Assembly: GCA_013203665.1 (NCBI GenBank)
Contig: JABMPU010000164.1
Location: 1 to 63,408 of the forward strand
Reading direction: 5' to 3'
Source of the DNA: Armatimonadota bacterium
Lineage (GTDB): Bacteria; Cloacimonadota; Cloacimonadia; Cloacimonadales; TCS61
DNA length: 63,408 nucleotides
Position numbers and translations under genes: made by a program. How positions within the stretch are numbered: the first letter of the stretch is position 1; every line of letters starts with the position of its first letter. Of this stretch, positions 57,081 through 61,228 are shown in pieces. Under the pieces are notes generated by a model. It saw nothing but the letters and a program-made list of their open reading frames with translations, was not told the origin of the DNA and made no database searches.

Positions 57081-57773
57081 ATGGTGAGAATCGTAAAAGA
57101 ATATGCAGAAAGAAAAAAAGAAATAATGGGTACTGCTCGAGCCCTTTTCTATCAAAACGGGTATGCAAATACTTCCGTGAATTTCATTATAGAAACCATC
57201 GGGATTTCCAAAGGTACATTTTATCATTACTTCAAATCCAAAGAAGACCTGCTGGATAACATCGTAGATGAATTCACTAAAGAAATCATTTCCAAATTGG
57301 AGTTGGTGGTGAATGATAATTCTTTGGACGCAATAAGTAAATTAAACAAATTCTACCGTCAGGCAGGTATGTATAAAGCTGAAAATATCGATGTAATCAA
57401 AACCATTGTAAATGCACTTTATAATGATAAAAACCTTTTGTTGCGATATAAAATGAACAATCGATCTGTAGAATTAATACTTCCTTTGATGAGTAAAGTT
57501 TTCGAACAGGGAAAGAACGAAGGTTCATTCGATATAGAATTTCCGGAAGCAACTGCCAGGATCATCCTGCTTTTCGGAACTTCCCTGGGGGAATACAATG
57601 CAAAATTGATGATGGATCTGGATGAAAATCCAGCTAACATCGAGGAAATGAAAAAGCATTTCAATATATATCAGACGTCTATTCAAAGAATTCTCGGTGC
57701 ACCGGAAGGTTCGATAGAAATATTTGATGAAGAGATCGTCGATGCAATTATGGAAAAATATAATGAAAGTTAA
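57081..57773 (+). CDS. TetR-family transcriptional regulator
   Basis: 230 residues. N-terminal helix-turn-helix ALFYQNGYANTSVNFIIETI ... GISKGTFYHYFKSKEDLLDN is the family signature; the C-terminal helical domain binds an unknown ligand. GGAGGTTGA precedes the ATG. Its last codons overlap the start of the outer-membrane protein gene by 11 bases, so it heads an operon with it and probably the ABC genes. Confidence 0.95.
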   Translation: MVRIVKEYAERKKEIMGTARALFYQNGYANTSVNFIIETIGISKGTFYHYFKSKEDLLDNIVDEFTKEIISKLELVVNDNSLDAISKLNKFYRQAGMYKAENIDVIKTIVNALYNDKNLLLRYKMNNRSVELILPLMSKVFEQGKNEGSFDIEFPEATARIILLFGTSLGEYNAKLMMDLDENPANIEEMKKHFNIYQTSIQRILGAPEGSIEIFDEEIVDAIMEKYNES

Positions 57774-58848
57774 AATATTCTGTTTATTTATCCTACTCTG
57801 CTCTCAAATGCAGGCAGAATTTTTCAATTTGAAAAACGACTTCTGGAGTCAGGCATCTCTTTTTGAAAGATCCAGTACCCAGCAATATCATCTTGGTATT
57901 CAATATAAACCAACTGTTTCATTGAATATTATCCAAAAAGATAACTTCGGGATAGATTTTGAAACGATTGCTAACTTATCTTACAAATACATTAAAAACG
58001 ATTCTACTAATTTTGAAGAAAAAGATGCTGAAATTTATCGGGGCTGGATAAGATATTCCGGCAGTCAGTTTGAAGCACGTGCAGGTTTACAGAAAATCAA
58101 TTTTGGACCTGCCCAGCTACTTCGTTCTCTCAAATGGTTCGATACAATCGATCCGCGTGATCCGCAGGAAGAAACTCAAGGTGTCCGTGCAGGTCTATTT
58201 AGATATTTTTTCCTGAATAATGCCAATATCTGGTTCTGGGTAATATATGCAGAAGATGAGCTTAAAGGATTGGAAACATTTGCATCAACAGAAAACAGCT
58301 TCGAGTTCGGTGGAAGGGTGCAATATCCTTTTGAATTCTGTGAAGCAGCTCTTTCCTATCATCACCGTGAAATGGAGAATACTTTCGAAGACAGGTTCGG
58401 TTTCGATGCACGCTGGGATTTTGAGATCGGATTATGGATCGAAGCAGTTGCTGCGAAATATTGTGAAAATGATTTTATTCCAAATTGGGAAAAATATCTG
58501 ACACTTGGAGCAGATTACACCATTTCGCTTGGAAATGGAATTCACATTCTCGGAGAACATTTTGTTTATTCAAAATCGGAAAGTGATCTTTTTGAAAGCA
58601 GTTATAAAGCAGAATCATCTGCCATCTCATTTAGTTATCCCATCGGATTATTTGATAATATCGTGGCAATGATAGTTTATAGTTGGGAAAGTGAAGACTG
58701 GTTCCGGTTTCTTTCTTATCAAAGAAATTACGATCATTTGAGCATTTACCTGAATCTTTCCTGGAACCCGGAAGTTAATAGCTTTGATCCAGACCAAATA
58801 TCAAATGATGGTAAATCTGTGCAACTGATGATCGGGTATAGTTTTTAA
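57763..58848 (+). CDS. Porin-like outer-membrane beta-barrel
   Basis: 361 residues from the ATG at 57763. Signal peptide (KVKIFCLFILLCSQMQA), then alternating strands with GWIRYSGSQFEARAGLQKIN, PAQLLRSLKWFDTIDPRDPQ and the aromatic C-terminus GKSVQLMIGYSF, as in outer-membrane porins. Likely the outer-membrane exit of the transport system encoded downstream. The reading frame continues upstream to 57724 but lacks a signal peptide there. Confidence 0.8.
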   Translation: MKVKIFCLFILLCSQMQAEFFNLKNDFWSQASLFERSSTQQYHLGIQYKPTVSLNIIQKDNFGIDFETIANLSYKYIKNDSTNFEEKDAEIYRGWIRYSGSQFEARAGLQKINFGPAQLLRSLKWFDTIDPRDPQEETQGVRAGLFRYFFLNNANIWFWVIYAEDELKGLETFASTENSFEFGGRVQYPFEFCEAALSYHHREMENTFEDRFGFDARWDFEIGLWIEAVAAKYCENDFIPNWEKYLTLGADYTISLGNGIHILGEHFVYSKSESDLFESSYKAESSAISFSYPIGLFDNIVAMIVYSWESEDWFRFLSYQRNYDHLSIYLNLSWNPEVNSFDPDQISNDGKSVQLMIGYSF

Positions 58849-58857
58849 GAAGAAATG

Positions 58858-59149
58858 AGCCACGAAGAGCACGAAGGAACACGAAGATGAAAAAGAAATC
58901 GTTCTCATTAACCACCAGTTTCAACTGGTGGGAAAAAGAGATACATCCTGTTCCCTCAGCCGTTTTAACGGCTTCCGGATTTAAGCATGATAAACCGTTG
59001 AAACGGTTAATGTCGTGTTTTGGTTTTTCATCCCACTGGCTGAAGCCAGTGGTTAATGAGAACTTTCGAATCTATTGCTCACCTCGACTCGACGCTTTAC
59101 TTTCGAGTCGAAATAAAAAACTTAGTGTTTCTTAGTGCCCTTAGTGGCT
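58858..59149. repeat. Composite palindromic (MITE-like) element
   Basis: 292 bases with 29-base terminal inverted repeats: 58858-58886 (three CACGAAG units) and 59121-59149 (CTTAGTG-type units), 24 of 29 matching. Inside lies a perfect 15-base inverted repeat (58901-58915 and 59049-59063), and four palindromes: 58912-58931, 58958-58973, 58993-59008 and 59033-59052, each with a 2-base centre (tc, tt or ga). No protein-coding gene; a frame at 58887-59135 merely translates the palindromes. Confidence 0.75.
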
Positions 59150-59166: not shown

Positions 59167-59859
59167 ATGGAACTTATCAAAATCGAAAAAATGACCAAAC
59201 ACTATCCCATTGGTGGCGGAAAATTCACAGCACTACGGGATATCGACCTGGAATTTAAAAAAGGAGAATTCACCGGCATTGTAGGACCCAGCGGTTCAGG
59301 AAAAACAACGCTTCTTAATATCATCGGTTCGCTGGATACACAAAGCGAAGGAGATGTGGAAGTTATGGGAAATTCTATTAGGAAACTATCATCCACAAAG
59401 GCTGCGAAACTTCGCAGCCAACATATTGGTTTTATCTTCCAGACTTATAATCTGCTACCGGTTTACACTGTTTTTGAAAATGTGGAATTTCCTTTAATCC
59501 TGTTGGGAATGCCAGCAGAAAAACGCAAAAAAGCTGTTCTCGATGCACTCGAGTGGGTTGGCTTATCCGATAAAGTAAAATCCCGTCCTGCTCAGCTTTC
59601 AGGTGGAGAATGTCAGAGGGTGGCAATTGCCAGAGCGATAGTAAAGAAACCGGATCTGGTGCTGGCTGACGAACCAACCGCTAACCTGGATGCGGAAAAT
59701 TCACATCATATATTAAAGACCATGGAAAAGATCAACAAAGAGCTGGGAACTACTTTCATCTTCTCCACACATGATGCAAAAGTAATAAAATATTTAAAAA
59801 GAAAAATTTCACTTCTGGATGGAAAAGTAGATAAAGACGAAATAGTGAATGGAGGTTGA
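59167..59859 (+). CDS. ABC transporter ATPase, LolD/MacB-like
   Basis: 230 residues. Walker A GPSGSGKTT, signature QLSGGECQRVAIARA, Walker B LVLADEPTANLD and the switch H in STHDAKVI. This size and motif set is typical of the MacB/LolD group that works with FtsX-type permeases to move lipoproteins, peptides or lipids outward. AAGAGG precedes the ATG. Confidence 0.94.
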   Translation: MELIKIEKMTKHYPIGGGKFTALRDIDLEFKKGEFTGIVGPSGSGKTTLLNIIGSLDTQSEGDVEVMGNSIRKLSSTKAAKLRSQHIGFIFQTYNLLPVYTVFENVEFPLILLGMPAEKRKKAVLDALEWVGLSDKVKSRPAQLSGGECQRVAIARAIVKKPDLVLADEPTANLDAENSHHILKTMEKINKELGTTFIFSTHDAKVIKYLKRKISLLDGKVDKDEIVNGG

Positions 59860-59885
59860 TCATGATCTTCAAATTTATTAGCTCG

Positions 59886-60013
59886 TTCAATCGTCCCGAT
59901 TGAATGGAATGTTTGAGATCGACCGTCCCGGTCGGAAAAATAGAAGTGGTTTAATAATAACACCGAGACGGTGTTATTGAAAAAACTAATGGTTCAATCG
60001 TCCCGATTGAACC
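59886..60013. repeat. Four palindromes with a constant centre
   Basis: Four inverted repeats: 59886-59904 (TTCAATCG-tcc-CGATTGAA), 59920-59934 (CGACCG-tcc-CGGTCG), 59956-59978 (AATAACACCG-aga-CGGTGTTATT) and 59991-60013 (GGTTCAATCG-tcc-CGATTGAACC). The stems differ but the CG-NNN-CG centre is shared. They fill the 200 bases between the ATPase and the first permease. Confidence 0.7.
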
Positions 60014-60055
60014 AACATTATAATTTTAGTAAAAAAATATAATCAAGGAGAACAG

Positions 60056-61228
60056 ATGATCTTCAAACTCGCTTATAAAAATATCATGGGAGCAGGCTTC
60101 CGCACATGGCTGAATATCTTCATCCTCTCGCTTTCCTACTTCGTTATAATTGCCCTGCAGGGATTCTTTATGGGCTGGCAAGATGATGCTTCTCGTGAAA
60201 TGAAGAACTGGGATTTTGCAGGTGGACAATACTGGCAGGAAGCTTATGATCCGTACGATCCATATACATTGGAAGACAGTCATGCTACGATCCCTGAAGA
60301 TCTGCAAAAACTGTTAGACAACGGTGAAGCTATTTCGATTCTGCTTTCTCCCGCTACGATCTATCCCGAAAGAAGAATGCGAAATATTGTACTTAAAGGT
60401 ATCGATCCGGATCAGGATCTGATCGAACTTCCAACAAAATATCTGGCAGATCCTGATGGTGAGACAAATTGTATAATCGGCTCCGGATTTGCTGATAACC
60501 TGAATATTAAAGAAGGAGATTTCATCGTTCTGCGTTGGCGTGATAAAAACGGAACTTATGATGCCCGTGATATAAAAGTGGCTCACGTTTTTTCTACAAC
60601 AGTAATCACTGTGGAAAGCAATCAGGTATGGATATCTCTACCAGTTCTGCAGGAAATGCTGGGTCTTCCAAATGAAGCTACTATCATCACAATAAAAGAT
60701 GAAATGTATAATAAAGAATTCTCCGGTTGGCAATATAAGAATTTGGATTTCCTGCTAATAGACCTTACAAACATGATCAAGGCAAAAACTATCGGTTCAT
60801 CGATAATGTACATTCTTATGTTGTTCCTGGCTATGATAGCTATTTTCGATACACAGATACTTTCCATTTTCCGCCGTCGTAAAGAAATGGGAACAATGAT
60901 GGCTATGGGAATGACACGACCGAAAATTATTCAACTGTTTACTCTGGAAGGTGTTCTTCACGCAGTGCTGGCAATTTTGATGGGTGCTGTATATGGAATT
61001 CCATTATTGCGATATTTTGAAAAAGTAGGAATGCAAATTGGAATGGATGCTAAAGAATGGGGCTTGAGCGGTTTGGATGATGCACTCTATCCGGTTTATG
61101 GCTGGAAACTGGTTGTTGGAACGATTGTATTAGTTTTGATAACCGTTACTATCGTGAGTTTTCTTCCTACCAGGAAGATAGCGAAACTGAAACCAACCGA
61201 TGCCCTGCGCGGAAAGATGACAAAATAA
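60056..61228 (+). CDS. FtsX-type ABC permease 1
   Basis: 390 residues. One N-terminal membrane helix (about 17-37), a large periplasmic domain (about 40-260), then three helices in the FtsX domain (about 265-385: MYILMLFLAMIAIFDTQIL, RRKEMGTMMAMGMTRPKIIQ). This is the LolC/E-MacB layout. AAGGAG precedes the ATG. Partner of the ATPase upstream. Confidence 0.9.
   Translation: MIFKLAYKNIMGAGFRTWLNIFILSLSYFVIIALQGFFMGWQDDASREMKNWDFAGGQYWQEAYDPYDPYTLEDSHATIPEDLQKLLDNGEAISILLSPATIYPERRMRNIVLKGIDPDQDLIELPTKYLADPDGETNCIIGSGFADNLNIKEGDFIVLRWRDKNGTYDARDIKVAHVFSTTVITVESNQVWISLPVLQEMLGLPNEATIITIKDEMYNKEFSGWQYKNLDFLLIDLTNMIKAKTIGSSIMYILMLFLAMIAIFDTQILSIFRRRKEMGTMMAMGMTRPKIIQLFTLEGVLHAVLAILMGAVYGIPLLRYFEKVGMQIGMDAKEWGLSGLDDALYPVYGWKLVVGTIVLVLITVTIVSFLPTRKIAKLKPTDALRGKMTK

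Follow-up and report, generated by a model that had tools for sequence, protein, structure and literature searches.

The element and its neighbours

Within the window (the whole 63,408-nucleotide stretch of DNA that was analysed), a 292-base element at 58858-59149 sits between two co-oriented genes, one porin-like and the other encoding an ABC-transporter ATPase. The features of the locus are listed below.

57763..58848, plus strand: upstream neighbour gene, porin-like, without a Pfam match
58858..58886, plus strand: left outer arm, three CACGAAG units spaced 9 then 10; found again at other loci
58901..58931, minus strand: REP-like palindrome 1 and its tail (CATTAACCACCAGTTTCAACTGGTGG), left half of the inner inverted repeat
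58958..58973, minus strand: REP-like palindrome 2, AGCCGTTTTAACGGCT
58992..59009, plus strand: REP-like palindrome 3, AAACCGTTGAAACGGTTA
59033..59063, plus strand: REP-like palindrome 4 and its tail (CCACTGGCTGAAGCCAGTGGTTAATG), right half of the inner inverted repeat
59084..59111, plus strand: fifth hairpin, TCGACTCG...CGAGTCGA; the same type is seen again in relatives
59121..59149, minus strand: right outer arm, three CTTAGTG units (CACTAAG on the minus strand), spaced 9 then 10 from the outer end
59167..59859, plus strand: downstream neighbour gene, ABC-transporter ATPase

The outer arms are complementary at 24 of 29 positions; shuffling the dinucleotides of the region 300 times never reached this match and gave 21 at most. 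The units begin at 58861, 58870 and 58880 in the left arm and at 59121, 59131 and 59140 in the right. Inside the arms lie a perfect 15-base inverted repeat (58901-58915 and 59049-59063) and four palindromes with 2-base centres (58912-58931, 58958-58973, 58993-59008 and 59033-59052). The original prediction had described this three-level architecture, with three units in each arm, as a non-coding element separating neighbouring genes of one operon, and it was right on all of these points; the sole internal open reading frame (58887-59135, 82 amino acids) has no Pfam match. The fifth hairpin, with an arm of 9 and a loop of 10, had escaped it. No Rfam match was found for the 292-base element, and its single-strand folding is much stabler than that of shuffled sequences, both as RNA (z = -8.8) and as DNA (z = -8.9).

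An insertion at a revisited site

A search for the upstream gene in 59 related genomes, with a reading of the interval up to the ATPase gene, showed the same two genes only about 10-40 bases apart at 15 loci in relatives. If 58858-59149 were cut out of the window, 26 bases would remain between them. The 292-base stretch is an insertion relative to these relatives, and its ends coincide with the insertion boundary, as had been proposed. Other versions of the site exist. The congener G001 keeps the right arm and the junction at this site (L193) with a different interior, and in G030 one copy (L033) has hairpins and no CACGAAG arms, while another (L059) has a right-type arm built of a different unit. 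Therefore, the site has been visited more than once.

The 292-base element as a whole is single-copy, and what recurs, in its own genome and in relatives, is its modules; these copy numbers are partial, coming from searches and from a 580-kb sample of the own genome that was not fully random. The start of the FtsX permease gene (window 59863-60067) has a second hairpin cluster, in which ATGATCTTCAAA at 59863-59874 is repeated at 60056-60067. An insertion there may have duplicated the gene start and supplied a new ribosome-binding site. In the own genome, a Y1 transposase gene (L027) is flanked by hairpins similar to those at 59875-60010 (ACCGTCCCGGT and ACACCG...CGGTGT).

The inner palindromes

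Palindrome 3, AAACCGTTGAAACGGTTA, equals a palindrome already published for Caldithrix abyssi (aAACCGTTgaAACGGTTt, PMC5317091). Palindromes of the window type lie on both sides of Y1 transposase (RAYT) genes in relatives (L237 and L245), and RAYT genes flanked in this way occur in G030 and G034. Both L237 and L245 are flanked by palindromes similar to palindrome 1, and the gene at L245 has 26 bases identical to palindrome 4 on each side; a related palindrome accompanies the Y1 transposase loci L239 and L243. Moreover, the palindromes are repeated and lie between genes in the own genome and in relatives. Judged by the RAYT genes that they flank in relatives, the inner palindromes are REP sequences of a RAYT family, in the REP-RAYT arrangement described previously (PMC3116915). 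The published palindrome, the paired inverted palindromes and the flanked Y1 transposases of relatives all agree with known REPIN/RAYT systems (PMC3116915, PMC5317091). The likeness covers only the interior of the window element: the outer arms are not REPs, and none of the seven Y1 matches in the own assembly is flanked by the inner palindromes. An IS200/IS605-type or REP-associated transposase had been proposed. For the inner palindromes a REP-associated Y1 transposase does exist in relatives; the outer arms are not accompanied by an IS200/IS605-type transposase and instead resemble those of GxxExxY genes. CACGAAG arms were also considered as companions of Y1 transposases and rejected, since doubled CACNAAG units occur within 1.5 kb of the transposase at just 1 of 37 loci (L244, about 0.9 kb from the gene).

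The outer arms as a separate layer

Of 125 genomes from the phylum, 9 contain the arm pattern (at most one mismatch) and none contains its reversed control. The 580-kb own-genome sample holds four paired phased arms against none in shuffles, and its doubled units far exceed a third-order Markov expectation of 0. Some arms adjoin tRNA genes, and right arms frequently end immediately before a ribosome-binding site and start codon.

In G013 (L197), an 84-base CACGAAG element adjoins a REP module and is not wrapped around it, and the interiors of other arm pairs are either very short and A-rich or unrelated (L181, L187, L191, L315, L346, L357 and L372). Arms and REP module are therefore independent layers, found elsewhere apart or side by side, and the window element is a composite in which a REP cluster is nested within a separate outer-arm layer. 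The original prediction of a composite REP or MITE stands as regards the composite and its REP-like interior. It fails as regards a single mobile unit, since the whole is single-copy and the two modules occur separately.

Arms of the same design flank GxxExxY nuclease genes

GxxExxY (TIGR04256, PF13366) is a small Cas4-like PD-(D/E)XK nuclease. In the own genome, the arms on either side of GxxExxY genes consist of short phased units, and every gene has a unit of its own; the idea that these genes carry CACGAAG arms was rejected, as they have other units. Public genomes yielded 80 GxxExxY loci from Bacteroidota, Planctomycetota, Verrucomicrobiota, Ignavibacteria, Aminicenantes, Cloacimonadota and others, chosen by protein similarity only; being the nearest relatives of two query proteins, they do not sample the family at random. 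Inverted flanks were strongly matched at 54 of the 77 genes with both flanks present, compared with 18 of 311 control genes from the same loci, and the median arm score was 24 for a locus's own pair against 13 for cross-locus pairs. Counted as unit triplets, which are not independent arms, most spacings taken from the outer end are 9-9 or 9-10, and none is 10-9. The commonest spacing in the own genome is 9-10, and both window arms have it.

The unit varies from element to element while the two arms of one element match: mismatches per 7-mer were 0.60 within an arm, 0.71 between the arms of an element and 1.66 between elements. Arm similarity also tracks GxxExxY protein similarity (Spearman 0.395; 0 of 999 permutations), and part of this correlation is owed to shared ancestry.

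The strongest case for gene and arms moving as one, and for gene-less forms being alternates of coding ones, comes from the site upstream of a gene that we take to be tldD-like, going by the first residues of its protein and not by a family search. A GxxExxY gene with CACGGAT arms occupies this site in G000 and G001, a different GxxExxY gene with CACGAAT arms occupies it in G023, and elements without a gene are found there in G030 and G034, with a hairpin located inside an arm in G030. The G001 element (L380) has two GxxExxY copies in succession, the first truncated and the second apparently complete, a pattern that suggests duplication via the arms.

Several further loci show the variety of the family. 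A Treponema GxxExxY gene (L073) has long ACACGGAT arrays with a spacing of 11-12 bases, not 9-10. About ten GxxExxY matches, several of them fragmentary, cluster at 786-828 kb of one contig (C1) of G043, which suggests local multiplication. GxxExxY elements lie between apparent atpA and atpG genes in genomes of different phyla (L014 and L127), and shared sites are also found upstream of an rmlA-like gene (L083 and L100) and of an araD-like gene (L099 and L108). Loci L114 and L120 have a neighbour gene in common with L017 of the own genome, from which the organism probably belongs to Cloacimonadota.

In a larger alignment of the protein, D70, K82 and E30 are invariant and E80 nearly so. The structural model (mean pLDDT 95.9) is closest to SSO0001 (E 5e-5), a Cas4 protein, with lambda exonuclease a weaker second. 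PADLOC gave only marginal matches (best E 0.0015). That the nuclease acts at the arms is a reasonable inference. In the open-access literature, we found no account of GxxExxY or PF13366 as a mobile element and no published description of the phased-arm element class.

Genes of the S23 family (four-helix, PF05635) in the same genomes likewise lie between matched phased arms of other units. Over 26 loci, a few of which show no clear arms, the median arm score is 19.5, compared with 12 for cross pairs. The arm design therefore accompanies more than one kind of protein. Among intergenic S23 or 23S-intervening-sequence genes (L141-L149 and L251-L279), the arm units include TTAGCAAAT, GAGTAAGGA and GTCGAGAG.

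Comparison with known elements

The window element shares with GxxExxY elements of many phyla the inverted arms and, in both arms, the 9-then-10 spacing. Unlike them it has no GxxExxY gene, and it is therefore at most a gene-less relative of the class. We found no coding copy with exactly CACGAAG/CACTAAG arms, the nearest units being CACAAAG, CACGGAG and CACAGAG, and no GxxExxY or S23 gene beside perfect or near-perfect CACGAAG arms in 66 loci, in a search backed by positive controls.

Bacterial MITEs, in the part of the published account available to us (PMC10969869), are likewise short and non-coding; they too have inverted ends, of which the genome holds many related ones, and coding counterparts. 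The window element has terminal inverted repeats around an interior without a Pfam-matched gene, is present or absent at orthologous sites, and has ends that are multi-copy as arms, the whole being single-copy. It differs from the MITEs of that partial account in that its ends consist of phased units that vary between copies and its counterpart gene encodes a Cas4-like nuclease and no known transposase. It also differs in lacking a target-site duplication, so we call it MITE-like and not a MITE. Such duplications, which the original prediction had suggested looking for, are absent from the window element and from all 33 GxxExxY elements in which they were sought, which argues against a classical DDE transposase.

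The intervening sequences of 23S rRNA with their S23 protein (PMC4990558) are also short, with inverted ends able to form a stem, and S23-gene relatives in this genome family lie between matched phased arms. The window element is intergenic and has no S23 gene; since it lies between two protein-coding genes, it does not have the location of a 23S rRNA intervening sequence. The TAACTGA repeats of Beggiatoaceae are, in the part of their description available to us (PMC4679880), short heptamer repeats between genes, often near start codons, and a possible mobile origin is discussed there. That part describes direct repeats and not inverted arm pairs, and mentions no nuclease partner.

Origin of the composite element

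We think it rather probable that the window element is related to GxxExxY elements, itself being gene-less and MITE-like, and that a REP cluster is nested in it. The outer layer would belong to a class of small intergenic elements that end in inverted arms, each with about three 7-base units at spacings of 9 and 10 bases; where a member is coding, it bears one short gene, that of the GxxExxY nuclease. REP palindromes of a RAYT family would have inserted into this outer-arm element, producing the nested mirror structure. The nuclease would recognise and cut at the arms, repair would then spread or swap the cassette, and gene-less copies, presumably including the window element, would be served in trans. 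After insertion, the RNA transcribed from between the two genes would fold into a long hairpin, likely an RNA processing site.

That last feature could be taken as the whole explanation. The arms might be kept for RNA, as an RNase III-cut stem like that of 23S rRNA intervening sequences, in a non-mobile element that processes or stabilises the operon transcript. The strong RNA fold and the position between co-oriented genes agree with this, as does the occurrence of matched arms around S23-type genes, which are known from RNase III-excised intervening sequences (PMC4990558). We nevertheless consider it unlikely: differences between paired arms show no G-U wobble bias (89 compatible, 104 not), so that arm matching looks like a property of the DNA, and selection on the arms as RNA only is rejected on this ground. 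Arms also adjoin tRNA genes, and most relatives with the same gene pair have an empty gap.

The link of the interior to REP-RAYT, together with the complex arrays that REP clusters are known to form (PMC3116915), might instead suggest that the whole is a REPIN-type product of RAYT alone and that the CACGAAG arms are just another REP family. This seems quite improbable to us, as the arms by themselves are not palindromic, have the 9-10 spacing of GxxExxY arms, exist both without REPs and beside them (L197), and are nearly absent from Y1 transposase loci. We give as little credence to the view that the arms bind a protein regulating the downstream gene and that local slippage multiplied these binding sites. 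Phased units would suit a protein on one face of the DNA, and right arms often stop just before translation signals; against this, the genes beside arms are unrelated, inverted arm pairs surround a variable interior or a nuclease gene, and the unit differs among sites while the arms within a site stay matched.

Returning to the GxxExxY-related element with its nested REP cluster, we suggest a wider model, which is possible and which we hold only tentatively. Minimal mobile cassettes of about 60-650 bases may be distributed across phyla without a classical transposase, GxxExxY (or S23 in the sister class) acting on the arms, arms and protein co-evolving, and gene-less copies being moved in trans. 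GxxExxY is a widespread family for which we found no function described, and its link to the arms, together with the gene-less copies, gives it a testable role. That link would explain many unexplained intergenic repeats in several phyla. At the window locus, moreover, two unrelated small element systems are seen nested in each other within an operon.
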